Below, piece by piece: positions 18,913 through 39,781 of a DNA stretch of 64,000 nucleotides. The notes below the pieces were generated by a model. The model was not told where the DNA came from. It did not search any database and was given only the letters and a program-made list of their open reading frames with translations. Location of the stretch: assembly GCF_014196765.1 (NCBI RefSeq), contig NZ_JACIEE010000013.1:62001-126000 (forward strand), written 5' to 3'. The stretch's first letter is position 1; every line of letters begins with the position of its first letter. Both the position numbers and the translations under genes were made by a program. Source of the stretch: Mycoplana azooxidifex. GTDB taxonomy: Bacteria > Pseudomonadota > Alphaproteobacteria > Rhizobiales > Rhizobiaceae.

Positions 18913-19075
18913 AGATCGGCGTGCCGATCTACTAACAGAAATGCGAGTAGGCGGAGCCTACGCTTTTGAGCATCATCCCGACCGTTCGCAAGGAGCGGAT
19001 CCGAAGGGCGCAATTATACGTCGCTGATGCGACGCTCTGCTTTTGCCCTCGGCGGGGCATTCCGCTCCTTCCGAA
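18913..19075. other. oriT: Origin of transfer (oriT)
   Basis: Between divergent traC and traA lies AAGGGCGCAATTATACG (19004-19020), the conserved nic-region sequence of Ti-type/RSF1010-like oriTs, followed by CGTCGCTGATGCGACG (19019-19034), a perfect 6-bp dyad. A 15-base inverted repeat with one mismatch brackets it: TTCGCAAGGAGCGGA at 18985-18999 and TCCGCTCCTTCCGAA at 19061-19075. Two further perfect dyads lie nearer traC: AGATCGGC/GCCGATCT at 18913-18930 and GTAGGC/GCCTAC at 18947-18961. These probably bind TraA, TraC or TraD. The nic position itself is inferred from similarity. Confidence 0.85.
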
Positions 19076-24147: not shown

Positions 24148-24161
24148 AACATGGAGCTCGC

Positions 24162-24770
24162 ATGCTGGATGCTGCGCTGATCAAGGAATGTGCCGACCCA
24201 TCGTTGAAGCCGGCAATCGTCGAACAATTCGTACAGGCGGCCGGCTCGGACGATCCGCTCGTCGTCACGGTTAAGTCCGGCGGCCGTCTGATCCTCGTTC
24301 CCAAACCGAAAACGCCTGAGGAAGCGCTCGAAATTGTCCGTGAGAACATTGGTGGCTCTGTCGTGCGGGTCGGTCTCACCCAGATCCCGGCGGGCATTGG
24401 CCTGAAGGACGCGTCGGAGCTTAAGGGCGATCTCGTAGACCCCTGCGCCAACCTGCGGATGGGGACGGCAATGTTTGCAAAGATCCTCCGCATTGTTGCG
24501 AAATGGTATGGAAATCCGACGAGCGAAGAGGTGTTCCCGCAGCTGTTCGACGATGCGGTACACGCCTGGCAGACCGGAAAATTCGAGGGCGAGAGTGTGT
24601 TTCAGGCTGAGAATCCGGGTGGCGCTGTCGTCCAGCAATCGGCAGTGGAGGTCGATGATGCTGACGAAGAAGGGGAAGACGCCCCCTCCTTGAAGCCGGA
24701 GGACGATCCGATCAAACCCGACAACGCTGGTATTCGCATCGATCTTACGAGGATTGGGGGGCAGAAATAG
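24162..24770 (+). CDS. traH: Conjugal transfer protein TraH
   Basis: GGAGC lies seven bases before ATG at 24162. The 202-residue product starts MLDAALIKECADPSLKPAIV. The segment NIGGSVVRVGLTQIPAGIGL resembles lytic-transglycosylase-like parts of the TraH family, followed by LVDPCANLRMGTAMFAKILR. The C-terminal 50 residues are acidic and probably disordered (EVDDADEEGEDA). No signal peptide is evident. It ends the traAFBH operon. A VirB1-like role in opening the cell wall has been suggested for such proteins. Confidence 0.85.
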   Translation: MLDAALIKECADPSLKPAIVEQFVQAAGSDDPLVVTVKSGGRLILVPKPKTPEEALEIVRENIGGSVVRVGLTQIPAGIGLKDASELKGDLVDPCANLRMGTAMFAKILRIVAKWYGNPTSEEVFPQLFDDAVHAWQTGKFEGESVFQAENPGGAVVQQSAVEVDDADEEGEDAPSLKPEDDPIKPDNAGIRIDLTRIGGQK

Positions 24771-25190: not shown

Positions 25191-25814
25191 TCAGCTGTCG
25201 GACGATTTGTTGGCGGCCCTCGGCAGCGAGAGACGCTTTGCAGATTTCACGGTCGCGCCAAGGTCGGAAAGTTTGCGCGGCCTGCCCCGTGCCGGGTGAG
25301 CGGCGGTCCAGATCTCCGCGAGTTCGACCATACGCGTGGTGAGCGACGGATAACCATCGACGATCTCCTCGGTGGTCGCCCCCTGAGCCTTCATGGCGGC
25401 AATCGTCCTGACTGGAACCCGGGTCTTACTGAAGACCGGTTCGCCGCCAAGAACACCCTTTACGCTCCCGATAACCCGTTCTGCTTCCCGAAGTGCCTCC
25501 GCACGTGCGGCAAGCTGTTCGCGTGCGCGGGCCACATCCACGATCAGATAATCGTCTGCTCGAACGGTGTCAGCATCGGGATTTTGGTCTATCGTGTCGA
25601 AGAGCCGCTGACGGCGCTCAGCCGACAGGATCGAACCGACCCCATACCATAGCTTGAGACGCAGCAAGTCATCGTCGGAAAGCGCTCGCCCTTCATCTTC
25701 AGTGAGACGTCGGGCAATGATCCGTTTGTCGATTGCGTTATGCACCGACTTCACGGCGATTTCGCTGACGGCAGCTGCTTCCGCAGGCGTGTAAGCGCGT
25801 GATGTGACAGCCAT
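25191..25814 (-). CDS. DUF433-domain antitoxin (VapB45-like)
   Basis: ATG at 25814 (MAVTSRAYTPAEAAAVSEIA) follows CGGAGAATGATT. The 207-residue protein has an N-terminal helix-turn-helix-like part (AYTPAEAAAVSEIAVKSVHN), a central linker, and a C-terminal DUF433 domain reading GGEPVFSKTRVPVRTIAAM then GATTEEIVDGYPSLT. DUF433 proteins pair with DUF5615 PIN-like toxins. The toxin gene directly downstream is frameshifted, so this antitoxin is an orphan that may persist as a DNA-binding regulator. Confidence 0.8.
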   Translation of the reverse strand: MAVTSRAYTPAEAAAVSEIAVKSVHNAIDKRIIARRLTEDEGRALSDDDLLRLKLWYGVGSILSAERRQRLFDTIDQNPDADTVRADDYLIVDVARAREQLAARAEALREAERVIGSVKGVLGGEPVFSKTRVPVRTIAAMKAQGATTEEIVDGYPSLTTRMVELAEIWTAAHPARGRPRKLSDLGATVKSAKRLSLPRAANKSSDS

Positions 25815-26003
25815 AATCATTCTCCGTGTGGAGAACATATAACCCACTTGAATACGGTTGTGAAGGGCGACTTTGGATTTGCTTGTATCCGCTTGCGACA
25901 TCGCGCCCGGTGCGATCAACTCAGGCGTCTTGGTCAGGAACAACCAGTTCGACGAGGCTCACCGCAAGCGCCCGTGCGATATCGTGTTGAAAGTTGGACA
26001 TTG

Positions 26004-26066
26004 CATGAATTAAAAATAGACGGCTATATGCTTTAAATTAGTCGGACCATGAATTAAGAATGGTCG
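26004..26066 (+). repeat. Direct repeat pair upstream of the AAA/DUF4143 remnant
   Basis: CATGAATTAAAAATAGACG at 26004-26022 and CATGAATTAAGAATGGTCG at 26048-26066 match at 16 of 19 positions, with 44 bases between their starts. The stretch is AT-rich and ends just before the ATG of the decayed ATPase gene. It may have been an operator or promoter duplication. Confidence 0.45.
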
Positions 26067-26067
26067 A

Positions 26068-27310
26068 ATGATCGAGCACCTTAACCCTTGTTGAACGCAA
26101 GGCGTTTCCTCTGGTCGAGGCTGCGCTGGCAGATACCCGTGTGGTCTTGATAACCGGGCCGCGACAGGCAGGGAAGACGACCCTTGCGCGCATGTTTTCG
26201 GATAAGGACCGCCCCTATATCACACTGGATGATGCCGGTACCTGAATGCTGCGAAAGCGGATCCGACTGGTTTTATCAGAGGGATCAAGCGTGCGGTTAT
26301 CGACGATGTGCAACGGGCGCCGACCTGATGCTCGCGATCAAGGCGAGCGTAGATATGATGAGGAGGCCGGCCGTTTTCTGCTGACAGGTTCCGCTAACCT
26401 GGCAACCATACCGACGATTGCCGACTCCTTGGCCGGGCGCATGGCCGTTATCCCGCTCCTTCCCTTTGCACAGGCTGAAATCCGGTCAAGCCCGGGCCGC
26501 ATGCTTGATCGCCTGTTCGCGGGAGAAGAGCCGGCGGTCGAGGGTGAGGTTGTCTTGGGCAAAGACATGATGAACGTCGTTCTAGCCGGCGGCTATCCTG
26601 AAGCCCTGAGACGAGCTTCCGTGGCCAGACGCGTCTCATGGCTCGAGGACTATGTCACCTTGATACTGGATCGCGACGTCCGCGACATCGCCAACATAGA
26701 TCAGCTCGATCGTCTGCCACGCCTCCTGAATATACTCGCCGAGCATGCGGGGCAGTTGATCAACAATAGCGGCTTCGGTTCGGCGCTAGGACTGTCCGGG
26801 GTAACGGCCCAGAAGTACATCGCTATCCTTGAGCGTCTGTTTCTCGTGAAAACCCTGGTTCCATGGTCGAACAACCGGCTCAGTCGGCTCGTTAAAACGC
26901 CGAAGCTCCATTTCATCGACACCGGACTGCTCGCCGCATTGCGTGAGGATGAGTTGGTCCGGCTGTCTGAAGACAAAACCCGGTTCGGCGCGCTGCTGGA
27001 AAGTTTTGTCGTCTCGGAGCTTATGAAGCTAGCGTCCTGGTCCGAAAGGCGCATGGCGTTCTCACACTATAGAACAAAGGATCGCGATGAAGTCGATGTC
27101 GTGATCGAAGATCGACGTGGCCGGATCATTGGTATCGAAGTCAAGGCTTCCGCGACCGTAAAGGCAGATGATTTTCGCGGGTTACGTCAGCTACAGGACG
27201 CTGTAGGTGAGCGGTTCGTGCGTGGTTTGGTCTTGCACGATCATGACCGCATCACCTCCTTTGGAGAGCGACTTCAAGCGGCGCCGTTGTCAACATTATG
27301 GTCGATGTGA
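26068..27310 (+). pseudogene. AAA/DUF4143 ATPase gene with several frameshifts
   Basis: Starting at ATG 26068 the reading must change frame about four times before 26390 to follow the family. The pieces are MIEHLNP, then FPLVEAALADTRVVLITGPR with QAGKTTLARMF (Walker A), then LNAAKADPTGFIRGIKRAVI with DDVQRAP (Walker B), then DLMLAIKASVD, then GRFLLTGSANLATIPTIADS. From there the frame is intact to 27310 and contains the DUF4143 part (HFIDTGLLAALREDELVRL, DEVDVVIEDRRGRIIGIEVK). Intact members are about 390 residues. The lesions cluster in the ATPase half, so function is lost. A C-terminal fragment from an internal start could in principle be made. Confidence 0.75.
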
Positions 27311-27459
27311 GTGGGGGCGGGCTGGCACAGGCGGCGTTCCAAGGAGCAGGAGTGGCCCGGTGCTGCATAGACGCTCGAGTGGCTCATCTTGCCGGAAATG
27401 ATCGTCTCGACCGCCAGACGAAGCACACTCTGTGCCGCAAACTCCGACCCGGCCCCAAA

Positions 27460-28164
27460 TCATATCAGCTGGAGCTTTGTCGCGATGGCTGTGGCTTGAG
27501 GCAGAGACACCGCTTCAAGGGTTTTGCGCGCGTTGTTCAAATGGAACACGACGGTTGATGATTTGATTTCCTCCATCGCCGCTATGTCCTTCATCGATTT
27601 GCCTTCTGCAGCCCATCGCAGGCACAGCGCCTGTTTCGGCGTCAAGGCCGCCACGATCGTCCCGGTCGCCGTTCCAATGCAATTCTGTAGGCGGCAATGG
27701 AGTTGTGCGACGGCTGTCGCCGCAACCACTTCGTCGACCGGCAGATCGGCAAATCGTTCCGGCTGGACGGTCGTCATCGTCAGTACGGCCAAGTGGCCGA
27801 AGCCTGTCTTGATAGGTATCGACAGGCCGCCACGCATGCCCGACGCCTGTGACGCCGACAACAGATCACCGGCCTGGGACCTTGCCAGCATGCGCCATTG
27901 CTTCAGCTCCCAGCGAAACGCCCGCACACTTTTCCTTGCCAGCATGATGACGGGATCGTGCAATGCCCAGTTTCCCCTCAGGTATCGCTCCTGCCATTCG
28001 AATGAGGCATTGGAAACCAGCCTCGTGCCCGATGGCCGGATATCCAGGTAGATGAATTTGTCAAAGCCGGCACGCTCGACGATACGGCCCAGTTCACGTT
28101 TCAGCATGCCGGCGTCCTGAGCCGTGGACGCAAGGTCAATGATCTTGAGAAGCCATCTTTGCAA
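27460..28164 (-). CDS. LuxR-family autoinducer-type regulator
   Basis: The 234-residue product has the size of TraR. The N-terminal autoinducer-binding domain keeps the signature residues: FEWQERYLRGNWALHDPV supplies Trp, Tyr, Asp and Pro in the TraR spacing, and FRW supplies the later Trp. The C-terminal LuxR helix-turn-helix reads LTPKQALCLRWAAEGKSMKD then STVVFHLNNARKTL. One usual residue is changed: the Glu after the TPR/TPK turn is Gln. Ligand binding of acyl-homoserine-lactone type is therefore plausible but not shown. No luxI homolog is in the window. It lies 38 bases downstream of an alpha-oxoamine synthase gene on the same strand, so the two are probably co-transcribed. Confidence 0.85.
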   Translation of the reverse strand: MQRWLLKIIDLASTAQDAGMLKRELGRIVERAGFDKFIYLDIRPSGTRLVSNASFEWQERYLRGNWALHDPVIMLARKSVRAFRWELKQWRMLARSQAGDLLSASQASGMRGGLSIPIKTGFGHLAVLTMTTVQPERFADLPVDEVVAATAVAQLHCRLQNCIGTATGTIVAALTPKQALCLRWAAEGKSMKDIAAMEEIKSSTVVFHLNNARKTLEAVSLPQATAIATKLQLI

Positions 28165-28202
28165 ATTTCACGCCTCCCTTTCTGGCAGGATCTCGCGGCG
28201 GC

Positions 28203-29453
28203 TTACAAGTGCTGGCGAACTTCTTCTCTGATGCTGTCGATTGCCGCGCAAAGACCACGGATCTCGGTTTCGCTGTGGGACGCAGTGAGGCAGATCCGAA
28301 GGCCAGCCTCACCACGTGCGACCGTGGGAAAGAAGACGGCGGAAGTGTAGAAGCCGAGCTGAAGCAGCTGCCGGGCGGCAGCGACCGCAAGAAGTTCGTC
28401 ACCGAAGCGAACGGTGCGAATGGGGAGATGGGAATGGCTGTCCGGTGATGGCAGTAGCCCGTCAAGGAGGGCCAGGTTATGGCGCAGTGCCAGCTGCCTT
28501 GCGGCGAGCTCCTCCGTTCGATGAATTTCTGCCGATGCATGTGCGGCGCCGATTGCGGCGGTGTTCAACGAAGCGGAGAATGCATACGCGACTGAAAATC
28601 GCCTGAACAACAGCTCTTGAGACGCTGTTCCCAGCATGAGGATGCCACCGGACGCGCCAAACCCCTTGCCTAGCGAAGCGGCGACGATGGTTCGCTCACC
28701 CAATTCCGAAAATACGGATCGTGCGAATCCCGAGCCTTCAGTGCCGATGAGGGAAACGCCATGTGCATCGTCGATGTAGAGGAAGAGCCCGTAGCGGTCC
28801 TGCAACGAAAGCAGATCGGCAAGCGGTGCAGCTCCACCCATCGAATACACTCCGTCGCAGACATAGATGACGGCTGGGTGGCTGCGGCACAGTGCTTCCA
28901 ATGCCGCCATGTCGTTGTGAGGAAGGGTCTCGACCCTCGTTTCTGCGGCAATTGTCGCCTTGTGATATGCCAGCGTCGCGTGTGCCAAGCGGTCGAACAC
29001 GACCAGCGGCTTCCGCCCTCCCGTCAGATGACCCGATGCCAGCAACGGAAGAGCGCTCATGTTGGCCGCAAGCACGGTGGTGAAGGTCAGGACCTTCGCG
29101 CGAAACAGACTGGAAAGGTCGGTCTCGAGTTCTCCCAGGGTCTCGAAATTGAGACGGGTCCGGGCGCACGACCAGTGCAAGGCGCCGGCTTTGAGGACCC
29201 CCTCCGCAGCACCGGCAACGATGGCAGGGTGATTGTCGAGGCCAAGATAGGAGCAGCGGACAAAGTCGGTGATACGGGGCCCGCCTTGCGCCAGCTGAAC
29301 GATGCGGCCATCGCGTGGTGCTGCATAGATCGCCATGATGCCCTGGTAATGGGCTGCCGCGAAGTTGGGGCTGGCGGCCGTGATCATCGCTGCGGTATTA
29401 CGGAACTGACGAGCGGCGGACCGATCCCGGGGATCTTCAGGAGCGTTGGGCAT
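28203..29453 (-). CDS. Alpha-oxoamine synthase family PLP enzyme
   Basis: ATG at 29453 has GGAG six bases upstream and gives 416 residues. The family (5-aminolevulinate synthase, KBL, BioF, serine palmitoyltransferase, CqsA) condenses an amino acid with an acyl-CoA. Seen here are SCARTRLNFETLGELETDLS in place of the GS-G-R-x-G loop, VCDGVYSMGGAAPLADLLSL, the cofactor-binding IDDAHGVSLIG (His231) and the PLP lysine in SLGKGFGASGG (Lys263). The substrate is not predictable. The loop near 93-105 differs from KBL/BioF consensus. It lies between a response regulator and a LuxR gene, reminiscent of signal synthases CqsA and LqsA, but that function is a hypothesis. Confidence 0.8.
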   Translation of the reverse strand: MPNAPEDPRDRSAARQFRNTAAMITAASPNFAAAHYQGIMAIYAAPRDGRIVQLAQGGPRITDFVRCSYLGLDNHPAIVAGAAEGVLKAGALHWSCARTRLNFETLGELETDLSSLFRAKVLTFTTVLAANMSALPLLASGHLTGGRKPLVVFDRLAHATLAYHKATIAAETRVETLPHNDMAALEALCRSHPAVIYVCDGVYSMGGAAPLADLLSLQDRYGLFLYIDDAHGVSLIGTEGSGFARSVFSELGERTIVAASLGKGFGASGGILMLGTASQELLFRRFSVAYAFSASLNTAAIGAAHASAEIHRTEELAARQLALRHNLALLDGLLPSPDSHSHLPIRTVRFGDELLAVAAARQLLQLGFYTSAVFFPTVARGEAGLRICLTASHSETEIRGLCAAIDSIREEVRQHL

Positions 29454-29554
29454 GACACTCTCCACTTGCTACCAGTGCGGGAAGAAGGCCATGCCGCGCG
29501 CGCCGTGACAACGAAGCTCCTGCTAAAGAAACATCAAGATTCTTCAAAGCCGCC

Positions 29555-30247
29555 TTAGGCGCCATCGACGACGAATCCGTTCGAACGGATCGTCCGAATC
29601 ATCTTTTTACCCGTCGTCTGTTCCAGCCGCCGTCTGAGCTTAGCGATATGCACATCGACGGTCCGGTGTTCGACATGAAAATTGGGCGGCCAGGCGGCTT
29701 CTATCAGATCATTTCGGTCCCGTACGCGGCCCGGTTCCTCGATAAGTCGCTTGAGCAGTCGGAACTCGATGGGACTGAGTTGGGCCGAGCCAATGTCGGA
29801 TTTGATCATGGGCAGGGGCTCATCGATTTCCAGATCGCCAAAACGCAGGATTGGCTGCGATCTTACGCGGACATGACCGTGCCGTTTGTCGCAAAGGCCG
29901 TTCAGGTAGGCGATGATGTGCTCGGGGGAGACGGGTCGGACGAAGACTTCGTCGATGCCGGCCTTGAGCAATTGGAGAAGGTGGCACTCCTGTCGTGCCG
30001 GAATGAGCGCCAAGAGCGGGAGATGGGCCGTTGCGGAGTTCGATTTGTGGGCGCGGCAAAAGAGGAGAACGGTGCTTGGATCTGCGCTACAATCCACAAT
30101 CGTCGCCAGGGCGTCGGCAGCTTTGGATTTGGACAGTGCGTCCGCACTCTCCGCCAACGCCGTCGGAAAACCGGCACTGGCCAGGATGTGGCTCATAAGA
30201 AGATAAAAATCTGGATCCTCGGAATGAATGACAACGAGGTCGGTCAT
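29555..30247 (-). CDS. OmpR-type response regulator with atypical receiver
   Basis: The 230-residue protein has an N-terminal receiver-like domain and a C-terminal winged helix (LSPIEFRLLKRLIEEPGRVR, RTVDVHIAKLRRRLEQTTGK, IRTIRSNGFVVDG). In the receiver, acidic residues are kept at the start (SEDPD), and Asp52 (ATIVDCSADP) could be the phosphoacceptor. The conserved Thr/Ser position reads LIPAR and the conserved Lys is Arg104 (FVRPVSPEH). Phosphorylation-dependent switching is therefore doubtful. No histidine kinase gene is adjacent. It shares layout and motifs with the gene at 39086-39781 on the far side of the same cluster. Confidence 0.8.
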   Translation of the reverse strand: MTDLVVIHSEDPDFYLLMSHILASAGFPTALAESADALSKSKAADALATIVDCSADPSTVLLFCRAHKSNSATAHLPLLALIPARQECHLLQLLKAGIDEVFVRPVSPEHIIAYLNGLCDKRHGHVRVRSQPILRFGDLEIDEPLPMIKSDIGSAQLSPIEFRLLKRLIEEPGRVRDRNDLIEAAWPPNFHVEHRTVDVHIAKLRRRLEQTTGKKMIRTIRSNGFVVDGA

Positions 30248-30279
30248 TGAACTTGCCCCAATCTTTTCCTGTGACCTTC

Positions 30280-30303
30280 GTCAGCCGGCACTGGCCGGCT
30301 GAC
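30280..30303 (-). terminator. Perfect hairpin between transporter operon and response regulator
   Basis: GTCAGCCGGC, four-base loop ACTG, GCCGGCTGAC: ten perfect pairs. It lies after the binding-protein gene stop and before the response-regulator start on the minus strand. No T-run follows, so it may be a factor-dependent terminator or an mRNA-stabilising stem. Confidence 0.5.
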
Positions 30304-30326
30304 TTCGGTAACCTTTGGCCCTCCCC

Positions 30327-31392
30327 CTACCGCACCCAATTGTTCCAGCGCTGCAGCAGCATCTTGGCGTTGGCATTGATCCACTCAGCGTCGGGAATGA
30401 TCACACTGTCCTTGAGGTCCCTGGTTGTCGGCATCGACTTGCGCGCCTCGGCGGACATCAGCGCGATGGCCTCGCTGCTTGGCGGCGTGCAGGAGAGTAT
30501 GTCGCAAGCCTCGGCCTGTACGGTCGGATGATCGAGCCAGAACGCTATGAGCTTGAGGGCGTTGCTCTTGTTGGGGGCGCCCTTGATCAGGGCTATGCGG
30601 TCGCCAACCAGGAAGGATGCCTTGTATGACCAGTCGATCGGCAGCCCCTCGGTTTTCATTGCTTTTGCCCTGGTCAACCAGATTTGGCCGAGGTCGTATT
30701 CGTTGTTGCGGAAGCCCTGCACGCTCTGGTCGCCGGTCTTCCACCAAAGGGTCACGTCGTCTCTGATTTCATCCAGTTTGTGAAATGCTCGGTCGACATC
30801 GAGAGGAAAGAGGCCACCCTTTTCGACGCCGTCCGCCAGGAGCGCCGCGGCAAGAACGCGCCAGGGATCATCGAAGTTCGGGAATGCCCGTCCGCCCGGA
30901 AAGGCCGGCCAAGTCCCACATGTCGGCCCAGGTCTCCGGTACCCTTGTTGTCTCGCTCTTGCGATAGACGAGCAGGGTTGCCGTGGACTGGAGCAAGGCG
31001 CCTCCGGCTGCACACGCATTGCGGGCAAGATCGGGTCTGGCAGTATAGGCTGCGCAGAACTCCGTGAGGTCTTCGGTAACCTCCCGGTGCGCCTCGGACG
31101 CTGCCTGAATCTCTCCGTCGAGATAGAGGTCCCAGTTGATATTGCCCGCCTTGACCATGGCGGCTGCCTTGGCCCGCATTTCTGCATTCGTGGCGGAAAC
31201 GACCATCACCGCAATACCGGTCTCTGCCGTGAAGGGATCGAACCAGGCCTTCTTCAAGGCACGGTCATAAGCACCGCCTGTGGATGCGATGATGACCTGT
31301 TCCTGAGCCTGCGCCTGGATAACGGACGTCGCGAAGACGAGAACGGCAAGCCACGAAAGCCGGCGTGAGAATGGGCGTCGTGTCGAATTCAT
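30327..31392 (-). pseudogene. Spermidine/putrescine-type periplasmic binding protein, single frameshift
   Basis: ATG at 31392 overlaps the upstream permease stop (ATGA). The first frame encodes a signal peptide (LSWLAVLVFATSVIQAQA) and a PotD-like start (QVIIASTGGAYDRALKKAWF). It ends at WADMWDLAGLSGRTG. From about 30908 the family continues in another frame: FPGGRAFPNFDDPWRVLAAA to the end (ANAKMLLQRWNNW). Removing one G from the GGCCGGCC at 30903-30910 restores DLAAFPGGRAFPNF and an intact protein of about 354 residues. The lesion may be a real mutation or a sequencing error. The transporter operon is otherwise intact. Confidence 0.8.
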
Positions 31393-32276
31393 GGGCATTC
31401 ACTCCTCTGGGTTCTGGTTTCTTTGTCTGTAGAAAGAAGTTGGGCGATGCCGATGAGGGCAAGCGATGCGACGACGGTTACCGTTGATGCCGCAGCTATG
31501 ACGGGGGTCAAGTTGAAGTCGATATCCTCGAACATCTTGCGGCTGATCGTCTTGCCGTCCACGTCCGAGATGAAGAAGGCAACCGTCGCCTCATCGAACG
31601 AGGCAAGAAAGGCGAAGACGGCGCCGGAGAAAATGCCTGGCGCGATATTGGGGAGCGTCACGTGCAGAAAGGTCTGCAGGCGGTTGGCACCGCAGTTGAG
31701 GCTGGCCAGTTCCAAGGCGGGGTCAACGCGTTGCAAGGCGGCCGTTACCGTAATCACGACGAAGGGGACTGCAAGGACCGTGTGCCCGATCAGAAAGCCT
31801 GTCAGACTACCTGTTAGATCCAGTGGGGCGAACACCAGATAGAGTGCCACGCCGAGCACGATGTGCGGCACGATCATCGGCGCAAGCGACAGCGCGTGCA
31901 AAAAACCTTTGAACGGTATGTCTCCCCGAACCAGTGCCAGGGCCGTCATCGTCCCCACGGTCGTGGCGGCGAAGCAAGTGGCGAAAGCGATCTTCAGGCT
32001 GAACCAGGTGGCGGACATCCAGTCCGGATCGTTGAAGAACGCCCGGTACCAGTCCAATGTCAGACCTTGGGGAGGAAACTGCAGATAGGCGGTGGTGCTG
32101 ATCGACATCGGGATGATGATGAGGGTCGGCAGGATCAGGAAAAAGAGCAGCGCGATGATGCCGAGGGTCTGAATGCAGGAGAGGATCACCTGCAGCTTGA
32201 TGTCAGTGGAGCGTGTGCCCATCGAACTGCCGTCCGCCGCAAGGGCCCGCTGGGCGATGTTTCGATCAATGAACAC
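31389..32276 (-). CDS. ABC transporter permease, PotC-like
   Basis: The 295-residue product has six or so membrane segments (GIIALLFFLILPTLIIIPM, VLAVPFVVITVTAAL and others). The EAA-type coupling loop reads LELASLNCGANRLQTFLHVT then LPNIAPG. The start is GTG at 32276, overlapping the upstream permease gene by 11 bases; ATG at 32222 is an alternative. It is the second permease of a spermidine/putrescine/iron(III)-type importer. Confidence 0.85.
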   Translation of the reverse strand: MFIDRNIAQRALAADGSSMGTRSTDIKLQVILSCIQTLGIIALLFFLILPTLIIIPMSISTTAYLQFPPQGLTLDWYRAFFNDPDWMSATWFSLKIAFATCFAATTVGTMTALALVRGDIPFKGFLHALSLAPMIVPHIVLGVALYLVFAPLDLTGSLTGFLIGHTVLAVPFVVITVTAALQRVDPALELASLNCGANRLQTFLHVTLPNIAPGIFSGAVFAFLASFDEATVAFFISDVDGKTISRKMFEDIDFNLTPVIAAASTVTVVASLALIGIAQLLSTDKETRTQRSECP

Positions 32277-33153
32277 TTTGGAACCCTTTGCTCAGTGAAA
32301 TTGCTTTGCGGAACACGAAGACCGTCAACAGGGTTACGGTGAGGAGAATTGTTGACAGCGCTGCGGCGAGCGGCCAGTCGAGAAGGACAACGGTTTGCTG
32401 TCCGATCAGTGTCGCCATCAGCATCGAACCAGGTCCACCAAGCAGGGCCGGTGTGATGTAGAAGCCGAGTGCGAGAACAAAGCACAGAACCGAACCGGCA
32501 AAGACGCCCGGTAGACTGAGCGGCAAGGTGACGAGCAGGAACCCGCGCAGGGGTCCTGCGCCCAGGTTGGCCGCAGCACGGACGAGATCTGCGGGCAAGG
32601 TTCTCAGCGTGGCGTAAATCGGGAGAATTGCGAAGGGCAGCAAAATATGGGCCATGCCGAGAATGACCGCTCCCTGCGTGTAGAGCAGTTTCAGAGGGTG
32701 GTCGATCAAGCCCGTGGTGCGAAGCAGTTCGTTGACGATGCCGTTTCGCTGCAGCAGGACGATCCAGGCATAGGAGCGAATGAGGACCGAGGTCCAAAGC
32801 GGGATGAAGACGCACGCGGCAGCCAGCAATGCTGCTCCTCCGCGCAGGCGTGTCATGGCGTAGGCGACGGGATAGGCGAGCAGCACGCAACTGACGGCGA
32901 CGGACGCTGCAGTTGCCATCGTGGTTGCCAGGACGCCGAGGTAGAGCGGATCCCGCCCAAGCCGCAGGTAACTCGCACCACCGTTTGAAAGGCTGAGCCC
33001 GACCAGTTCGGTAACCGGATAGATGAAGCCAATAGCCAAAATGGCGAGGAGTGGCAGGACGAGTATCGCAGATGTCAGCGAACTGTAACGACTGGCATGA
33101 CCGGTGTCGGCCAGGGCGCGCAAGGCGCGTATCGGAGAGCGGGGCATGCTCAC
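32266..33153 (-). CDS. ABC transporter permease, PotB-like
   Basis: The 295-residue inner membrane protein starts with GTG at 33153, overlapping the ATPase stop (GTGA); ATG at 33147 is possible. Hydrophobic segments include LTSAILVLPLLAILAIGFIY and VAVSCVLLAYPVAYAM. The coupling loop reads VRAAANLGAGPLRGFLLVTL. It pairs with the PotC-like permease downstream. Confidence 0.85.
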   Translation of the reverse strand: MSMPRSPIRALRALADTGHASRYSSLTSAILVLPLLAILAIGFIYPVTELVGLSLSNGGASYLRLGRDPLYLGVLATTMATAASVAVSCVLLAYPVAYAMTRLRGGAALLAAACVFIPLWTSVLIRSYAWIVLLQRNGIVNELLRTTGLIDHPLKLLYTQGAVILGMAHILLPFAILPIYATLRTLPADLVRAAANLGAGPLRGFLLVTLPLSLPGVFAGSVLCFVLALGFYITPALLGGPGSMLMATLIGQQTVVLLDWPLAAALSTILLTVTLLTVFVFRKAISLSKGFQSVH

Positions 33154-34250
33154 AGGCGCCTCCCGTTTTCGGCGTGGAAAAGCTTCAGCTTGTCGGATGG
33201 CAAAGCGACCGCCAGCATCCCGCCCAGTTCTGGCAGGCCGGCAAGTTCATTCGGCACCTGTATGCGAAGTGTCAGCCCTTCCATATCCGTCAGACGGACG
33301 TGGGCGGTTCGGCTCGCGCCGGAGAACACCAGGTTCTCCAGCGTGCCGGTCACGCCCGAAGCTCCGGGCGGGCAAACGCCGATGTGCTGCGGTCGCACCG
33401 CGATCGACACCATTGTCCCGACAGGCAGTGGCTGCGTCCCCGTCGTGGCAGTCTCGATGATCGCGCCGGAGGCGATGCGGATCGTCGCGGCGCCGCATTC
33501 ATATCCGACGACCACGCCCGGAATGAAATTGATCGTACCGACGAAATCAGCAACGAAGGCGCTTTGCGGTTCGGTGTACAGCTCGAGTGGACTGCCTATC
33601 TGTTCGAGCTGCCCCTTGTGCATGACCGCCACCCGATCCGACAACGTGAGAGCCTCTTCCTGGTCGTGCGTGACGTAGACGACGGTCGCGCCGAGTTGCT
33701 GTTGAAGTCGTTTGACTTCCAGTTGCATCGCCTCGCGGAGCTTCTTGTCGAGTGCGCCCAGAGGCTCGTCCATCAGCAGCACCGGCGGATTGAATACCAG
33801 CGCACGGCCGACAGCGACTCGTTGCTGCTGTCCACCGGAGAGCTGGTGCGGATAGCGATGTGCAAACGCGCTCAACTGCACCATGTCCAGCATGGCGTCC
33901 ACGCGTTTGCCGAGGTCCTCTCTGCGGGGTCGCTTCCGCATTCGCAGCGGGAACTCGAGGTTCTTGCGAACCGTCATGTGAGGAAACAGGGCGTATTTCT
34001 GGAAGACCATCCCGATGTCGCGTCGGTTCGGAGCGAGCCGCGTGATGTCTACATTTCCAACGACGACCGAGCCGGTCGTCGGCCGTTCGAAACCAGCGAT
34101 CATCGTTAGAAGCGTCGTCTTTCCCGATCCGGACGGACCGACGATTGAGACAAACTCCCCTGCCCCGATATCGAGATCTGTCTCATGAACGGCGTATGTG
34201 GCGTCGTACGCCTTGCGGATTCCGCGAAGTGAAAGGCTTTGTCCGATCAA
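33150..34250 (-). CDS. ABC transporter ATPase, PotA-like
   Basis: The 366-residue protein has Walker [13 protein letters not shown]-loop [12 protein letters not shown], signature [15 protein letters not shown], Walker [15 protein letters not shown] and H-loop [14 protein letters not shown], followed by a C-terminal TOBE-type domain. It energises the two permeases and is the first gene of the leftward operon. The intergenic region to the divergent gntR gene is about 207 bases. The substrate class (polyamine, small organic acid or iron) cannot be told from the ATPase. Confidence 0.9.
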
Positions 34251-34411
34251 TTCATTCCCCTTTTGTTTTGTTTGGATGCTTTCGAGTTGTGCGAAGCCGG
34301 CCCGGAGAAGGGCTCGTAGAGCTCGCTCCGAAGCGTAAGGCGGTGACTTGCAAACCTTGAAACGTTATAGGTTTTAGTGCGCCAAACTTTGCAAAGACTT
34401 TACATTTGCAT

Positions 34412-34427
34412 TTTTGTTGCACCAAAA
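34412..34427. promoter_or_regulatory. Candidate GntR operator, upstream copy
   Basis: TTTTGTTGCACCAAAA lies 30 bases before the gntR start in the divergent region. It differs at one base from the perfect palindrome at 35180-35195, so autoregulation and control of the leftward transporter operon are likely. Confidence 0.6.
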
Positions 34428-34457
34428 AAGAAGTCTGTCAACACGCTTGAGGCGAAA

Positions 34458-35147
34458 ATGAGTGCGACACAATCGACATTGGGGAAGCAGATGCAGGCGC
34501 CGAATCTCGGCGATACCACCTATGAAGAGTTGCGAGACCGATTGACGCGGGGGGTCTACCGTCCCGGCGACAAGTTGACGGTGAGATCGGTTGCCGAGGC
34601 ATTGGGTGTCAGTTCCACGCCGGCGCGGGATGCGATCAACCGGCTGGTCGCGGACAACTCGCTAGTCTACGCTGGGCCGAAGACGGTCATTGTACCCGTT
34701 CTGACGGAGGCTGACCTGAGGGAGATCACGTATATCCGCCTGGCGCTCGAGGGGCTGGCGGCAGAGTTGGCGATGGAAAGACGCCAACCGGAAGATGTTG
34801 AAAATCTGATGGAAATACAGACAAAAATCAATTCTGCGCTTTTGGCAAAATCCTATGCGGCGGCGCTGTGGCACAACAAGGAGTTCCATTTTCTCGTCTA
34901 TCGCCTCAGCGGAATGCCGCACCTGGTCGCCATGATCGAGGCGCAATGGCTGCGCGTTGGTCCGTCCTTCTATGGGCTTTACCCGCACTTTGCCGAGGAG
35001 CGGCAGGGTGTGCGCAATCATCAGATGGCGATAGAAGCCATGATGGATGGTGACCGGGGGGCTTTGCGGGCGGCATTCGAGAACGATATCCGCGAAGGTT
35101 ATCGCCAGTTGCGCTCCGGACTTCTTGATGGGCGGATCCGTTCGTAA
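34458..35147 (+). CDS. GntR-family regulator, FadR/FCD type
   Basis: ATG at 34458 (MSATQSTLGKQMQAPNLGDT) follows GAGGCGAAA and gives 229 residues; an upstream in-frame start overlaps the operator and is less likely. The N-terminal winged helix reads TYEELRDRLTRGVYRPGDKL then VRSVAEALGVSSTPARDAIN. The C-terminal FCD ligand domain has the metal-type pattern LREITYIRLALEGLAAELAM, NKEFHFLVYRLSGMPHLVAM and NHQMAIEAMMDGD. It probably senses a pathway acid. Near-identical palindromes before its own gene and before the enzyme operon point to its targets. Confidence 0.85.
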   Translation: MSATQSTLGKQMQAPNLGDTTYEELRDRLTRGVYRPGDKLTVRSVAEALGVSSTPARDAINRLVADNSLVYAGPKTVIVPVLTEADLREITYIRLALEGLAAELAMERRQPEDVENLMEIQTKINSALLAKSYAAALWHNKEFHFLVYRLSGMPHLVAMIEAQWLRVGPSFYGLYPHFAEERQGVRNHQMAIEAMMDGDRGALRAAFENDIREGYRQLRSGLLDGRIRS

Positions 35148-35179
35148 ACTTTTTGATGCGTGGACTTGACGTCGGCTTC

Positions 35180-35195
35180 TTTTGTTGCAACAAAA
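35180..35195. promoter_or_regulatory. Candidate GntR operator, perfect palindrome
   Basis: TTTTGTTGCAACAAAA is a perfect 16-base palindrome located 50 bases before the aminotransferase start. It matches the upstream-of-gntR copy at 15 of 16 bases. Confidence 0.65.
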
Positions 35196-35244
35196 TGTGA
35201 AGCTTCTATAAAGTCACGAAGTTACCGCAACAGAAAGCAGTCCA

Positions 35245-36585
35245 ATGCACAGCCATGCGCCAGCCGGTCCGGCCGGGGGATGCCCCGTGTCCAGTCGTCT
35301 CTACCGCCGCGGTTGCCGGGTTCTACCAGGCGGCCTCACCCGATCCACCATCGATCTCGATCCCCACCCGATCTACATGGCTGCTGGAAAGGGCGCCTAC
35401 GTGACGGACGTGGACGGCAACCGTTTCCTTGATCTGAACAACAATTTTACGACCTTGATTCACGGGCACGGCTATGAACCTGTCGCCGACGCTGTCAGCC
35501 GTCTGCTGCGCAGCGGTACCTGCTTTGCCAATCCAACCGAACACGAGATCGCTCTGGCCGAACTTCTCGTTTCTAGGATCCCGGCCATGGAACAGGTTCG
35601 CTTTGTCAACACCGGGACCGAAGCTGTCATGTTCGCGCTCAAGGCAGCCCGAGCCTTCACCGGCCGACCGGCCATTGTCCGCTTCTCCGGTGCCTATCAC
35701 GGGGCCTATGACTGGGCCGAAAACGGGCAGAACGGCCTTCCTTCCGGCTTCGCGCCGCGGCTTCAAGCCTACCGTGGCGCGCCCGAGAGCATCTCGGATG
35801 ACGTCGTCGTATTGGACTTCAATCGGATTGACGCACTGGAGGACGCGCTTGCGGCACATGCCGGGCGCCTGGCAGCCATTCTCATCGATCCTGTGCCGAG
35901 CCGGGCCGGGCTTCTCGCTCCCCTCCCCGAATTTCTCGAGCGTCTCTCCAGCTTCGCGCGCCGCAACGGCACGCTGATCATCGCAGATGAAGTTCTCAAT
36001 CTGCGCCAGGGCTATCAAGGCGCCTCGGCGAGGTTTGGGCTTCGGCCCGATCTCATCACCGCCGGAAAGATCATCGGCGGCGGTTTCCCGATCGGGGCGA
36101 TCGGCGGTCGCGCCGAGGTCATGCAGGTCTTTCGCTCGGACGGAAAGTCGCCGGCGGTACCCCAGGGCGGTACATTCGCCGCCAATCCTGTCTCCATGGT
36201 GGCGGGCCTCGTGGCGATGGAAGCGATGACCCCCGATGCCTTCGTCCAGTTGGAGGACTTGGGGAATGGGTTGAGAACTCGGTTGACGGCGATCGCCGCG
36301 CGCCATGATGCGGCCTTCACGATCGCCGGGAGCGCGTCCTTGTTCCGTATTCACGCCAAGCGGACGTTACCGACAACCTATGCCGATGCCGTCATGTCTG
36401 GCGCAGAGGCCAAAATCATGCGCCGCCTTGGCCGTTTCTTTCTCGGCAGGGGTGTTCTGTTGCCTTTCGGGGCGGCGGCCTGCCTTTCGACGGCGATGAC
36501 GGCCTGCGAGATCGATGCCATCGCCGAAGCCTTTGAAATGTTCATCACCACCGACCAGGAACGCAGCCAGGAGAGCCAGTCATGA
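35245..36585 (+). CDS. Class III aminotransferase, glutamate-1-semialdehyde aminomutase-like
   Basis: The 446-residue PLP enzyme resembles HemL-type aminomutases. Seen are YVTDVDGNRFLDLNNNFTTL, FVNTGTEAVMFALKAARAFT (phosphate-binding GTEA), FSGAYHGAYDWAE, the cofactor Asp region LIIADEVLNLRQGY and the PLP lysine in LITAGKIIGGGFPIGAIGG. It is unlikely to be the housekeeping HemL given its place in an inducible operon. It may move or shift an amino group on a keto substrate. Its stop overlaps the next start by four bases, so it is coupled to the thiamine-diphosphate enzyme. Confidence 0.8.
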   Translation: MHSHAPAGPAGGCPVSSRLYRRGCRVLPGGLTRSTIDLDPHPIYMAAGKGAYVTDVDGNRFLDLNNNFTTLIHGHGYEPVADAVSRLLRSGTCFANPTEHEIALAELLVSRIPAMEQVRFVNTGTEAVMFALKAARAFTGRPAIVRFSGAYHGAYDWAENGQNGLPSGFAPRLQAYRGAPESISDDVVVLDFNRIDALEDALAAHAGRLAAILIDPVPSRAGLLAPLPEFLERLSSFARRNGTLIIADEVLNLRQGYQGASARFGLRPDLITAGKIIGGGFPIGAIGGRAEVMQVFRSDGKSPAVPQGGTFAANPVSMVAGLVAMEAMTPDAFVQLEDLGNGLRTRLTAIAARHDAAFTIAGSASLFRIHAKRTLPTTYADAVMSGAEAKIMRRLGRFFLGRGVLLPFGAAACLSTAMTACEIDAIAEAFEMFITTDQERSQESQS

Positions 36586-38297
36586 ATAGCATTTCCATCG
36601 AGCAAACCGTCGCCGACCGTGTGGCCGAAGCGCTCTTGCGGCACGAGGTCGAGTTTCTCTTCGCGCAAAGCCTGCCCTCGGCACTGGTGCTCGCCGCCGA
36701 GGAGCGCGGCATCCGCCAGATCGCCTATCGCCAGGAAAATATGGGTGGGGCGATGGCCGATGGCTATGCGCGCCTGTCCGGCAGGGTCGGTGTCGTGGCC
36801 GCGCAGAACGGCCCCGCAGCGACACTTCTGGTTCCGCCACTTGCCGAAGCCTTAAAGGCCAGCATTCCCGTCGTGGCGCTGGTGCAGGAGGTCGATCGTG
36901 ACCAGGCCGACAAGAACGCATTCCAGGAGCTCGACCACATTGGGTTGTTTCAGGCTTGCACCAAATGGGTCCGGCGGGTCCACGTCGAAGATCAGATCGA
37001 GCACTACATCGAGGCGGCCTTCACGGCTGCTACCTCGGGCCGCCCGGGGCCTGTTGCCTTGCTGCTCCCGGCGGATCTGTTGCGGGCCCGTATCAAGCCG
37101 CAACAGGGGCTGAGACGCACGAGCCTTGGACGCTACCCGCTCGATCGGTGCCGGCCGAGTGACGAGGTGATCAAGCGCGCGGCACGGTGGATCGCCGAGG
37201 CGAAGAGACCGGTCGTGCTCGCCGGCGGCGGTGTGCACGGCGCGAGCGCTTCGTTCGAGCTTTCCCGGCTGCAGGAACTGGCGAGCCTGCCGGTCTGCAC
37301 GACAAACATGGGAAAGGGTGCCGTAAGCGAATTCCATCCCTTGTCGCTCGGTGTACTCGGCTCCCTGACCGGTCCCCGATCTCTCGGCACCTATACCCGG
37401 CCCTTTCTCGAGAACGCTGACCTCGTAATCCTGGTCGGGACACGCACCAACCAGAACGGTACCGACAACTGGAGCCAGATCCCACCATCGGCCAGGCTAC
37501 TTCATATCGACATCGATCCGACAGAGATCGGGCGAAACTACGAAGCAACCCGGCTTGCGGGCGATGCAAGGGAAACCGTCGAGGCTTTGTGCGATGCGCT
37601 CGAAAACGAGGATCTCGCCTCCCGCCATACGGTTCGTGCCGATCTTGAACGGCAGATCGCCGACTGCTGGGCACAGTTCGAGGAGGCGCGCCAGCCTGTG
37701 GCGCACTGCGATCGCGGTCCGATCCGGCCCGAGCGGGTGATGAGTGAGTTACAGCCCTGGCTTCATCGCGATCTGACTGTCGTTGCCGATGCGAGCTACT
37801 CGTCCATGTGGGTCGTCGGGCAGTTGCGAGCACCGCGCGCGGGAAGCCGGTTTGTGACGCCCCGCGGGCTGGCCGGACTCGGCTGGGGCGTGCCGCTCGC
37901 CATCGGCGCCAAACTCGCCGAGCCGGACAGACCGGTGGTCGCGGTCGTCGGTGACGGCGGCTTTGCCCATAGCTGGGCGGAACTTGAAACCATGGTCCGT
38001 CTCGGAGTTCCCGTGGTTATCATCGTTCTGAACAATGGCATTCTCGGTTTCCAGCGCGATGCCGAGACAGTGAAATTTGGCCGCTTCACCTCGGCATGCC
38101 ACTTCGCGCCCGTCGATCATGCCGCGCTGGCCGCCGCTTGCGGATGCCGTTCGGCTCGTATCGACGATCCTGCTCAGCTCTCGTCGACGATAGCGGCCGC
38201 CATTGAGGCGAACGAGCCCTTTCTGATCGAGGTTATGACGGATCCGGATGCGCATCCGGCGCTTTCGATCTTTGCGGCGATGGACCAGGCGGCGTGA
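36582..38297 (+). CDS. Thiamine-diphosphate enzyme, acetolactate synthase-like
   Basis: The 571-residue product has the catalytic Glu in YRQENMGGAMADGYARLSG near residue 50, a central Rossmann-like domain, and the thiamine-diphosphate motif VVGDGGFAHSWAELETMV to VVIIVLNN near 450. The family includes acetolactate synthase, sulfoacetaldehyde acetyltransferase, oxalyl-CoA decarboxylase and carboligases. No regulatory ilvN-like gene is near, so a biosynthetic acetolactate synthase role is unlikely. A decarboxylase or carboligase acting on an alpha-keto acid derived from the aminotransferase step is a reasonable guess. Confidence 0.85.
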   Translation: MNSISIEQTVADRVAEALLRHEVEFLFAQSLPSALVLAAEERGIRQIAYRQENMGGAMADGYARLSGRVGVVAAQNGPAATLLVPPLAEALKASIPVVALVQEVDRDQADKNAFQELDHIGLFQACTKWVRRVHVEDQIEHYIEAAFTAATSGRPGPVALLLPADLLRARIKPQQGLRRTSLGRYPLDRCRPSDEVIKRAARWIAEAKRPVVLAGGGVHGASASFELSRLQELASLPVCTTNMGKGAVSEFHPLSLGVLGSLTGPRSLGTYTRPFLENADLVILVGTRTNQNGTDNWSQIPPSARLLHIDIDPTEIGRNYEATRLAGDARETVEALCDALENEDLASRHTVRADLERQIADCWAQFEEARQPVAHCDRGPIRPERVMSELQPWLHRDLTVVADASYSSMWVVGQLRAPRAGSRFVTPRGLAGLGWGVPLAIGAKLAEPDRPVVAVVGDGGFAHSWAELETMVRLGVPVVIIVLNNGILGFQRDAETVKFGRFTSACHFAPVDHAALAAACGCRSARIDDPAQLSSTIAAAIEANEPFLIEVMTDPDAHPALSIFAAMDQAA

Positions 38298-39070
38298 TGA
38301 ACCAACGGCCAGAACGGGTCGCGGTGGTGACAGGTGGCAGCTCCGGCATCGGACTGGCCACGGTCGCCACCTTCCTCGAGACAGGTTTCAACGTGGCTTT
38401 CTTCGGGCAGAACCCGGACCATGTCGAATCCGCCAGGAACCGGCTCGTTCGCCGCTTTGGTGCCCACCGGATTCTGGCAAGGTGCGTCGATCTTGCCTTG
38501 CCGAAGGAGATCTCCAGCTTCTTTCGTGAGGTGGAGGCGCACTGGCAACCGGTGGACACGCTGGTCTGCAATGCAGGCATCTCGCCCAAGGGTGGGAACG
38601 GTGCGTCACCGTTCCTGACGCTGGACCTGGCAGAATGGAACCGTGTCCTTGCCGTCAACCTGACCGGCACGATGCTGTGCTGTCAGGCGGTGCTTCCGGC
38701 CATGCTGGAGCGGGGCTTTGGCCGTATCGTGTTGATCGGCTCCATTGCTGGTCGGACCGTCCCGCGGGTCGCCGGAACCGCCTATGTGGTTTCGAAGGCA
38801 GGGCTTGCCGGACTTTGCCGTTCGCTGCTCGCAAGCTGCGCCGGCAGCGGCGTGACCGTCAACATGATCGCGCCCGGCCGCATATTGACCGAAATGACCG
38901 GACCAGCCGACAGCGAGACGAACCGTGCCGCTCTCGGTCGGATCCCCGTCGGTCGTCTGGGTGACGTCGGCGATATAGCAGCTGTCACCGGCTTTCTTGC
39001 CTCACGGGATGCCGGCTTCATCAACGGTGCGATCGTTGACGTGAACGGAGGCGAATTTGCGCCCTTGTGA
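38297..39070 (+). CDS. Short-chain dehydrogenase/reductase
   Basis: ATG at 38297 overlaps the preceding stop (TGATG). The 257-residue product has the nucleotide motif VVTGGSSGIGLATV, the structural LVCNAGISPKGG, and the catalytic set Ser (VLIGSIAGR), Tyr-x-x-x-Lys (AYVVSKAGLAGL). The C-terminus ends VDVNGGEFAPL, typical of FabG-like enzymes. It would reduce or oxidise a keto/hydroxy product of the upstream enzymes. Confidence 0.85.
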   Translation: MNQRPERVAVVTGGSSGIGLATVATFLETGFNVAFFGQNPDHVESARNRLVRRFGAHRILARCVDLALPKEISSFFREVEAHWQPVDTLVCNAGISPKGGNGASPFLTLDLAEWNRVLAVNLTGTMLCCQAVLPAMLERGFGRIVLIGSIAGRTVPRVAGTAYVVSKAGLAGLCRSLLASCAGSGVTVNMIAPGRILTEMTGPADSETNRAALGRIPVGRLGDVGDIAAVTGFLASRDAGFINGAIVDVNGGEFAPL

Positions 39071-39085
39071 GACCGGACACGGCTG

Positions 39086-39781
39086 ATGAGCAAGGTTCTT
39101 GTTTGCGTCGCAGACGCCCAGCTCTTCTTGTTGCTGAGACATCTGCTGGCAGGCGAAGGCTTTGACGCGGTGCTTGTCAGCAAGCCATCGGAGATCGGGT
39201 CGCTGGCCGAGCTGGATATTTCCGCGCTCGTGATCGCCTGGCCGGGCGAAGAGGGACAAGGGCCGGCCCTCCTTTCGTGCGCGCGATTGGAATTTCCGTC
39301 GGCTTCCGTGATACTCCTGTCAAGGGACGGAGCGGCAGTCCGCCCCGGCGAATGCGACCTCTTCCTTCAACGCCCTTTCGATCCTGCGTCCTTGATGGGT
39401 TTCCTGCGTCGTCTCGCTCAGACGCAACGCGCTATCGAACCCGGCGACAATCCGGAAAGCCTCCTGAGGTTTGCCGATCTTGAAATGAACCTCGCAATGA
39501 TGAGCGTGCGCAGGGGCGGAAACTCGGTGCATCTGAGTGCGCTGCAATTCCGTATCCTGCGCCGGCTGCTGCAGGAACCGGCAATGGTCTGCGATCGCGA
39601 AGAGCTCATAAAGTCCTGTTGGCCGGTCAATGCGGACGTTGAACCTCGTACCGTCGATATTCATATTGGCCATGTTCGTCGCGCGCTCCAGGCGCGTGGC
39701 CCGGATCTGATCCGAACGGTTCGCGGCAGAGGTTATGCCCTCCAGTGCCCAGAGAATGGATGCGTCGATCACCCGGCATAA
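39086..39781 (+). CDS. OmpR-type regulator with degenerate receiver
   Basis: The 231-residue product matches the protein at 29555-30247 in layout. The winged helix reads VHLSALQFRILRRLLQEPAM, RTVDIHIGHVRRALQARGPD and IRTVRGRGYALQ. In the receiver part the phosphoacceptor position reads SALVIAWPGEEG with no Asp, and the Lys position is Arg (LQRPFDP). It should therefore work without phosphorylation, through ligand binding, protein contact or amount. It closes the rightward operon, 15 bases after the SDR gene. Confidence 0.8.
   Translation: MSKVLVCVADAQLFLLLRHLLAGEGFDAVLVSKPSEIGSLAELDISALVIAWPGEEGQGPALLSCARLEFPSASVILLSRDGAAVRPGECDLFLQRPFDPASLMGFLRRLAQTQRAIEPGDNPESLLRFADLEMNLAMMSVRRGGNSVHLSALQFRILRRLLQEPAMVCDREELIKSCWPVNADVEPRTVDIHIGHVRRALQARGPDLIRTVRGRGYALQCPENGCVDHPA

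Follow-up and report, generated by a model that had tools for sequence, protein, structure and literature searches.

A conserved GntR-headed gene cluster that ends in traR beside type I transfer genes in Mycoplana azooxidifex

A divergent cluster with traR at its end

We analyzed a stretch of 64,000 nucleotides from Mycoplana azooxidifex (RefSeq assembly GCF_014196765.1, contig NZ_JACIEE010000013.1, positions 62,001 to 126,000; hereafter the window) and in particular a divergent cluster in which genes for a transporter, metabolic enzymes and atypical regulators stand together with a gene for a TraR-type LuxR protein. Proteins were taken from the list of open reading frames (ORFs) and assigned by Pfam and NCBIfam profile scores, with Pfam reporting at E 0.001. 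An earlier note on this DNA had described the same kinds of genes in the same divergent layout, and the ORFs agree with it exactly in borders, strands and domains. Genes of the leftward arm are separated by gaps of less than 90 bp, and several of them overlap.

27460-28164, minus strand: TraR-type LuxR regulator (Autoind_bind and GerE), last in the leftward run and 38 bp after the next gene listed
28203-29465, minus strand: alpha-oxoamine synthase (AOS) of the PRK07505 subfamily (Aminotran_1_2; NCBIfam)
29555-30247, minus strand: reg2, atypical OmpR-type regulator with a degenerate receiver (Trans_reg_C only)
30327-31398, minus strand: PotD-type substrate-binding protein whose reading frame is interrupted, its two parts overlapping in separate frames
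31389-32276, minus strand: PotC-type permease (domain profiles)
32266-33153, minus strand: PotB-type permease (domain profiles)
33150-34250, minus strand: PotA-type ATPase (domain profiles)
34412-34427, no strand: operator copy 1, TTTTGTTGCACCAAAA, between PotA and GntR
34377-35147, plus strand: GntR-FCD regulator, RctR-like (domain profiles, similarity searches)
35180-35195, no strand: operator copy 2, TTTTGTTGCAACAAAA, ahead of the aminotransferase gene
35245-36585, plus strand: HemL-like class III aminotransferase (AT; domain profiles)
36582-38297, plus strand: thiamine-diphosphate (ThDP) enzyme of the PRK06112 subfamily (NCBIfam score)
38294-39070, plus strand: short-chain dehydrogenase/reductase (SDR; domain profiles)
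39086-39781, plus strand: reg1, atypical OmpR-type regulator directly after SDR, RctC-like by position (Trans_reg_C only)

The true start of the GntR gene is probably the in-frame ATG at 34458, and the PotD reading frame is broken at positions 30874-30905.

A shared operator at the head of both arms

A dyad search over 58 intergenic stretches between GntR and PotA yielded the motif TTTTG-N6-CAAAA, whose exact 8-base core was present in 31 of these stretches with their initial boundaries, against a mean of 0.24 and a maximum of 1 in shuffles. This motif, derived on one promoter, was then tried on others, using fixed upstream stretches that run beyond the GntR match starts, some of which are misplaced, and leaving the window out of all counts. 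The exact core TTTGN6CAAA lies upstream of PotA at 53 of 57 loci, upstream of AT at 53 of 58 and upstream of reg2 (as head of reg2-AOS) at 38 of 69, with a nearly identical consensus at all three promoters. The corresponding counts for the control genes are 0/88 for AOS, 0/24 for reg1, 0/48 for SDR and 2/54 for ThDP; shuffled means were 0.00 to 0.33. The shuffles were single-letter; a better control is provided by the other genes, and loci that are related cannot be treated as independent. The window holds the 16-base pattern at up to one mismatch in exactly two copies, both exact, at 34412 and 35180 and thus one heading each arm. The shuffled expectation over the whole window is 0.87, so that it is the places of these copies rather than their number that matter.

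Because operator sites head these units, we read the GntR regulon as comprising PotABCD, AT-ThDP-SDR-reg1 and reg2-AOS. Possession of its own site by reg2 depends on the layout, with 36 of 55 cases where reg2 does not follow PotD versus 2 of 14 where it does (Fisher p 0.0008). Two of the loci at which TraR follows AOS (L056 and L059; loci are numbered with the prefix L) have two sites directly ahead of a reg2-AOS-TraR unit, and the six others, window included, have sites only at the PotA/GntR and AT promoters. Given this distribution of reg2 sites, the AOS-TraR tandem would fall inside the GntR regulon in either layout. A simple scan of positions 27300-34400 for promoter-like sites found none (1.6 expected).

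Conservation and the linkage to traR

We scanned GTDB genomes with an AOS alignment and kept the best 80 of 167 relatives, corresponding to 66 non-Bradyrhizobium and 14 Bradyrhizobium loci. Neighbors were called by tblastn of the window proteins with thresholds set afterwards, and since flanks of 10 kb and contig ends limit the view, the counts are lower bounds. The earlier note had asked whether the two arms are neighbors elsewhere, and this proved to be the case: 54 of the 66 non-Bradyrhizobium loci have at least one of AT, ThDP, GntR and PotA in their flanks, and 50 have AT together with ThDP or GntR (per gene: AT 50, ThDP 47, PotA 49, GntR 52, SDR 41, and a reg protein 61). The 12 loci that have none of AT, ThDP, GntR and PotA nearby belong to genomes of which 11 encode the ThDP family somewhere. 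None of the 14 Bradyrhizobium loci passed the neighbor thresholds; in some of them, AOS is accompanied by SDR and aminotransferase genes of more distant relationship. Among 121 evenly sampled Rhizobiaceae genomes, the AOS family occurs in 4 and the ThDP family, above its cut-off, in 10; all 4 AOS genomes carry AOS and ThDP on one contig, 3.0 to 9.9 kb apart. The two arms thus appear to form a conserved, often plasmid-borne regulon in Hyphomicrobiales, in support of the earlier claim that the set is one unit.

The set minus TraR was found in seven plasmids and in several layouts, including L010, where AT, ThDP and reg1 lack annotation and the matches to AT and ThDP are partial. Some relatives carry M81 peptidase, amidohydrolase or hydantoinase genes beside the core, suggesting breakdown of an amide-bearing compound. 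As a separate observation, L001, L005, L006, L010, L117, L118 and L121 have a HEPN/nucleotidyltransferase gene in the vicinity of the cassette.

TraR stands in tandem with AOS at 8 of 90 loci (the 89 AOS loci plus the window; some loci end soon after AOS, and the TraR of L016 is a fragment). Both genes share a strand; the spacing is 38 bp in the window and, for three annotated plasmids, 38, -4 and 57 bp, and at the other four tandem loci no more than 74 bp separate the AOS match from the beginning of the TraR ORF. In principle, an ordinary catabolic cluster could have come to lie beside transfer genes by chance, with the adjacency of traR and AOS as a coincidence of plasmid mosaicism. The lack of TraR at most AOS loci would fit this explanation, as would a single origin that the linkage may have had, and class I traR is said in part of PMC6341043 to lie always near tra operons, so that inserted cargo would land beside it. 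However, TraR closely follows AOS on the same strand across two different cassette layouts, the operators of L056 and L059 lie immediately ahead of reg2-AOS-TraR, and another catabolic cassette has a related regulator at its end near TraR (described below). We therefore consider chance adjacency improbable.

The TraR-type receptor

The solved structure nearest to the LuxR protein of the window is TraR (1h0m), and the protein scores 160.9 bits with the NCBIfam TraR model PRK13870, below its equivalog cut-off of 250 bits. In an alignment it retains W57, Y61, D70 and W85, which we take to be the residues that hold the acyl-homoserine lactone. The earlier note had envisaged that LuxR senses a ketone made by AOS, and both the TraR family membership and these pocket residues speak against such a receptor. 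The TraRs of L056 and L059 have F61, and that of L059 additionally A70. Because Y53 is lost in all 8 AOS-linked TraRs (retained in 11 of 15 others; four TraR-like ORFs below 200 aa had been dropped beforehand), the acyl specificity of the AOS-linked proteins may differ. Independent captures of TraR could not be established by phylogeny, with one group appearing in 22% of bootstrap trees. A search for LuxI-type genes gave matches for L001, L015, L016, L018, L053, L079 and L121, in either the record or the genome; none were found in the plasmid records L004 and L005 or in the genomes of L056 and L059 (their completeness is not told), nor in record L003, which itself has no TraR.

Neighboring type I transfer genes

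The cluster adjoins a type I conjugation region with genes for TraG, TraA, TraF, TraB and TraH.

16343-18355, minus strand: TraG coupling protein of the type I transfer region (search of the genome)
19114-22422, plus strand: TraA relaxase (similarity to annotated TraA)
22419-24770, plus strand: TraF, TraB and TraH (TraB profile; similarity to annotated genes of Rhizobium sp. SL42)

Another contig of the same genome, C20, carries trbI, trbG, trbL, trbE, trbB and repABC and is probably another part of the window's plasmid. It also holds the sole LuxI-type match of the genome, a TraI-type synthase at C20:17747-18227 that is split between two frames, the first of which runs into TrbB. TraM gave zero matches in this genome, and control genomes were equally silent. 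One tra box candidate, a single site with 3 mismatches read on both strands, was dismissed as being at chance level. An 18-bp dyad, AGATCGGCGTGCCGATCT, lies ahead of traA at 18913-18930 and is a perfect palindrome in SL42; it is not among the dyads upstream of repA on C20 and could possibly be a tra box or an oriT element. Between traH and traR, genes of the DUF433 and DUF4143/AAA types occupy positions 25191-27310, and a DUF433 gene is annotated after traH in several related plasmids, too.

Enzymes of the cluster and a possible signal synthesis

With 508.5 bits (cut-off 342), the AOS belongs to PRK07505, an uncharacterised subfamily distinct from CqsA and LqsA. It reaches 70 bits with the alpha-hydroxyketone synthase model NF005526 (cut-off 428) and stays far under the cut-offs of the KBL, BioF and ALAS models, too. 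Judged by these scores, AOS is neither one of these housekeeping enzymes, the case that would have spoken against the earlier note, nor an autoinducer synthase of the CqsA/LqsA type. The ThDP enzyme scores 929 bits with PRK06112 (cut-off 673). Neighbors among solved structures (8xha-type for AOS, 254 bits; BbmA for the ThDP enzyme; 6k8h for AT) indicate no substrate, none of the papers listed in a literature search dealt with BbmA, and a search of viral contigs for the ThDP enzyme found no match. Related ThDP enzymes (53-54%) in L109 and L114 adjoin a CoA-transferase III gene, in L109 together with a Dak1 domain gene, which is possibly the context of another undescribed pathway.

These enzymes could also be taken as the makers of a signal, with AOS, AT, ThDP and SDR producing an amino- or hydroxy-ketone that leaves the cell, is taken up again and is sensed by GntR or by the receiver-like regulators. 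The presence of a reg protein near AOS at 61 of 66 non-Bradyrhizobium loci points in this direction, as do the AOS of Mesorhizobium B2-1-8, whose neighbors are genes for a GNAT, an EamA transporter and a second aminotransferase, and 5 of the 14 Bradyrhizobium loci (L066, L083, L085, L088 and L091) that have a 51-52% aminotransferase (a short match only in L091) close to AOS and SDR and lack the importer. However, an importer is linked at most loci (PotA at 49 of 66; exporters were not systematically searched), the FCD-type GntR and the hydrolases of some relatives suit breakdown, the score of AOS with the alpha-hydroxyketone synthase model lies far under the cut-off, and the core exists without AOS in an 18 kb stretch at L115. 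Synthesis of a signal by this cluster therefore seems quite unlikely to us.

Two regulators with degenerate receivers

At the Pfam threshold used, no receiver domain was reported for reg1 or reg2. In our reading of the alignment, their receivers have mostly lost the acidic pair and carry R, S or T in place of the lysine, and the reg2 rows retain an aspartate at the phospho-acceptor-like site. A structural model of reg2 (mean predicted local distance difference test score 87, predicted template modelling score 0.53, 16 rows) predicts a five-stranded receiver-like domain and a winged-helix-like C-terminus. In a phylogenetic tree, reg1 and reg2 fall into a single family that is separated from the PhoB and KdpE-like outgroups with support 0.999; branching within it is weak. 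This family includes regulators that end another catabolic operon near TraR or LuxR/LuxI on four plasmids, namely L135 (Rhizobium C104), L136 (R. beringeri), L137 (R. daejeonense) and L139 (A. tumefaciens pAt).

The different cassette of these four plasmids encodes an ornithine cyclodeaminase, MmgE/PrpD, an amidohydrolase, a CN hydrolase and mostly also TauD and RraA; a reg1/reg2 relative stands at its end, TraR or LuxR-LuxI adjoins, and three of the four have trb or tra genes within the stretch covered. The response regulator directly ahead of TraR in three of them groups with the outgroups. At many loci a small conserved protein (about 65-86 aa, with a motif around YGxxAxxAxAyCALdA; e.g., L010:9467-9697) is encoded next to reg1 or reg2; it has no match in the window and one elsewhere in the same genome, at C20:5225-5422.

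Correspondence to the rct circuit of pSymA

The rctR/rctC circuit of S. meliloti pSymA is reportedly due to Nogales et al. 2013. Passages of PMC13274422 describe rctR as the repressor of an adjacent multi-enzyme operon and the rctC product as activator of the antirepressor gene rctB, which drives conjugation; they call the environmental signal unidentified and ascribe the circuit to 13 of 30 pSymA-like plasmids. We find that pSymA carries the set without TraR, with homologs in the order GntR-AT-ThDP-SDR-reg1 (L002). Of its 4 Trans_reg_C proteins (strain 1021), 2 belong to this cluster, and among its 18 GntR genes the one within 6 kb of an OmpR-type protein is that of the cluster. From locus numbering, the record being without annotation, we tentatively take rctR and rctC to be SMa0955 and SMa0961, here the pSymA genes at about 534.0-534.7 and 538.7-539.4 kb, and SMa0956 and SMa0951-3 to be genes of this cluster. 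SMa0956 is called a glutamate-1-semialdehyde aminomutase in a part of PMC3272708, and potABCD3 (SMa0951-3) is listed among transport genes essential for symbiosis in a part of PMC7268258.

The window shares with the rct circuit the anatomy of a repressor gene (with repression by GntR as the presumed function) beside a multi-enzyme operon and a response-regulator gene tied to that operon, since reg1 follows SDR and may correspond to RctC. It seems probable from gene order that the published circuit is this locus on pSymA, which makes it doubtful that no system of this kind had been described, as the earlier note had it; the match to the circuit described in PMC13274422 carries a reservation regarding pAtC58 (see below). 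The novelty lies in the link to TraR on plasmids of type I, in the operator that the promoters have in common and in how far the regulon extends. Unlike pSymA, which combines RctA/RctB with type II transfer, the window has type I transfer with TraR as the end point: together with C20 it carries TraG-Ti, traAFBH, trb and repABC rather than type II transfer under RctA, though the search extended neither to rctA nor to other contigs. Because the transfer system is of type I and rctB was not identified, we do not count the cassette among the rct circuits in the strict sense. OmpR-type (Trans_reg_C) proteins are absent from R. etli p42d, which relies on rctA/rctB, and therefore reg2 is not RctB if rctB lies on p42d. 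The small conserved protein A2 was likewise discarded as RctB, with no match on p42d.

Comparison with opine-type control of traR

According to parts of PMC6341043, Ti plasmids have traR within the octopine (occ) and agrocinopine (arc) operons, nutrient-controlled units beside tra genes, with a distal position in occ, and in an octopine Ti record we find ABC genes followed by traR. Gene order and operators suggest the same anatomy for the window, with traR inside a transport and catabolism run under a regulator. The Ti operons differ in having OccR or AccR where the window has GntR-FCD, and in their enzymes; the window also adds AOS and the two atypical response regulators and has no known tumor opine. 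In pAoF64/95 (mannopine/TmsP), a GntR-type repressor of opine genes and the mot transporter likewise control TraR activity, but traR is monocistronic there and controlled via TraM, in contrast to the traR of the window in its regulated run (PMC6341043, in part). Plasmids of group I-C such as pLPU83a resemble the window in having TraR without a working linked TraI, which here is frame-split, and carry rcgA/rcgR ahead of traR (parts of PMC13055273 and PMC9601222). In the part of the literature covered we found no publication linking traR to this gene set, and the sections of PMC5789663 at hand do not feature this system.

A proposed metabolite cue for plasmid transfer

We consider it fairly likely that the cluster responds to a metabolite as one regulon and in doing so also sets the time of plasmid transfer, acting as a switch for TraR rather than as the maker of a new signal. 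Without substrate, GntR-FCD would bind TTTTGTTGCAACAAAA at both arms and repress both. An aminated small molecule taken up through PotABCD would be the substrate; its presence would lift this repression, and AT, the ThDP enzyme and SDR would metabolize it, with reg1 made alongside. The leftward run would then yield the transporter, reg2, AOS and finally, by read-through, TraR, which would activate the adjacent type I transfer genes. The compound would thus cue conjugation in the manner of an opine on Ti plasmids, and the half comprising regulator, enzymes and reg1 would correspond to the rctR/rctC region of pSymA. Uptake and breakdown are the direction suggested by the importer, the FCD-type GntR and the hydrolases in some relatives. 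A sensed metabolite, as already proposed in the earlier note, is likely.

Several points weigh against this proposal. TraR is linked at only 8 of 90 AOS loci, no canonical tra box appeared in the window scan, a core with one mismatch also precedes AOS at 18 of 88 loci (shuffles 7.8), and traR may have a separate promoter. The frame-interrupted PotD and the split of the genome's only LuxI-type synthase suggest that the window copy may be impaired; the cassette of Rhizobium sp. SL42, for example, is unbroken. Moreover, the rctR/rctC locus tags are tentative, and pAtC58 is said in part of PMC13274422 to be without the rct activation circuit, whereas an A. fabrum pAt record (NZ_CP119418, 542,869 bp; L006) holds the whole cassette without TraR; either a stricter criterion was applied there or our identification is wrong. 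According to parts of PMC4231840 and PMC5215187, the rctB of pAtC58 is controlled by AccR, the regulator for agrocinopine.

A further-reaching reading, which we regard as doubtful, is that of a portable conjugation-cue module, in which a GntR regulon with paired receiver-degenerate regulators is coupled either to RctA/RctB (type II) or to TraR (type I), and the PRK07505 AOS makes or converts the molecule sensed by GntR or the degenerate receivers. The second cassette with its other enzymes would act likewise.

Parts of PMC13274422, PMC7403402 and PMC8628070 describe as unknown or unidentified the signal by which RctA-type rhizobial symbiosis plasmids are released for conjugation. If the cassette corresponds to the rctR region, the transporter, enzymes and operator it contains would narrow the search for this signal to substrates amenable to screening with a single reporter. 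If the proposal is true, nutrient-cued plasmid transfer would reach beyond tumor opines, and one cue module would be common to plasmids with different transfer machineries.

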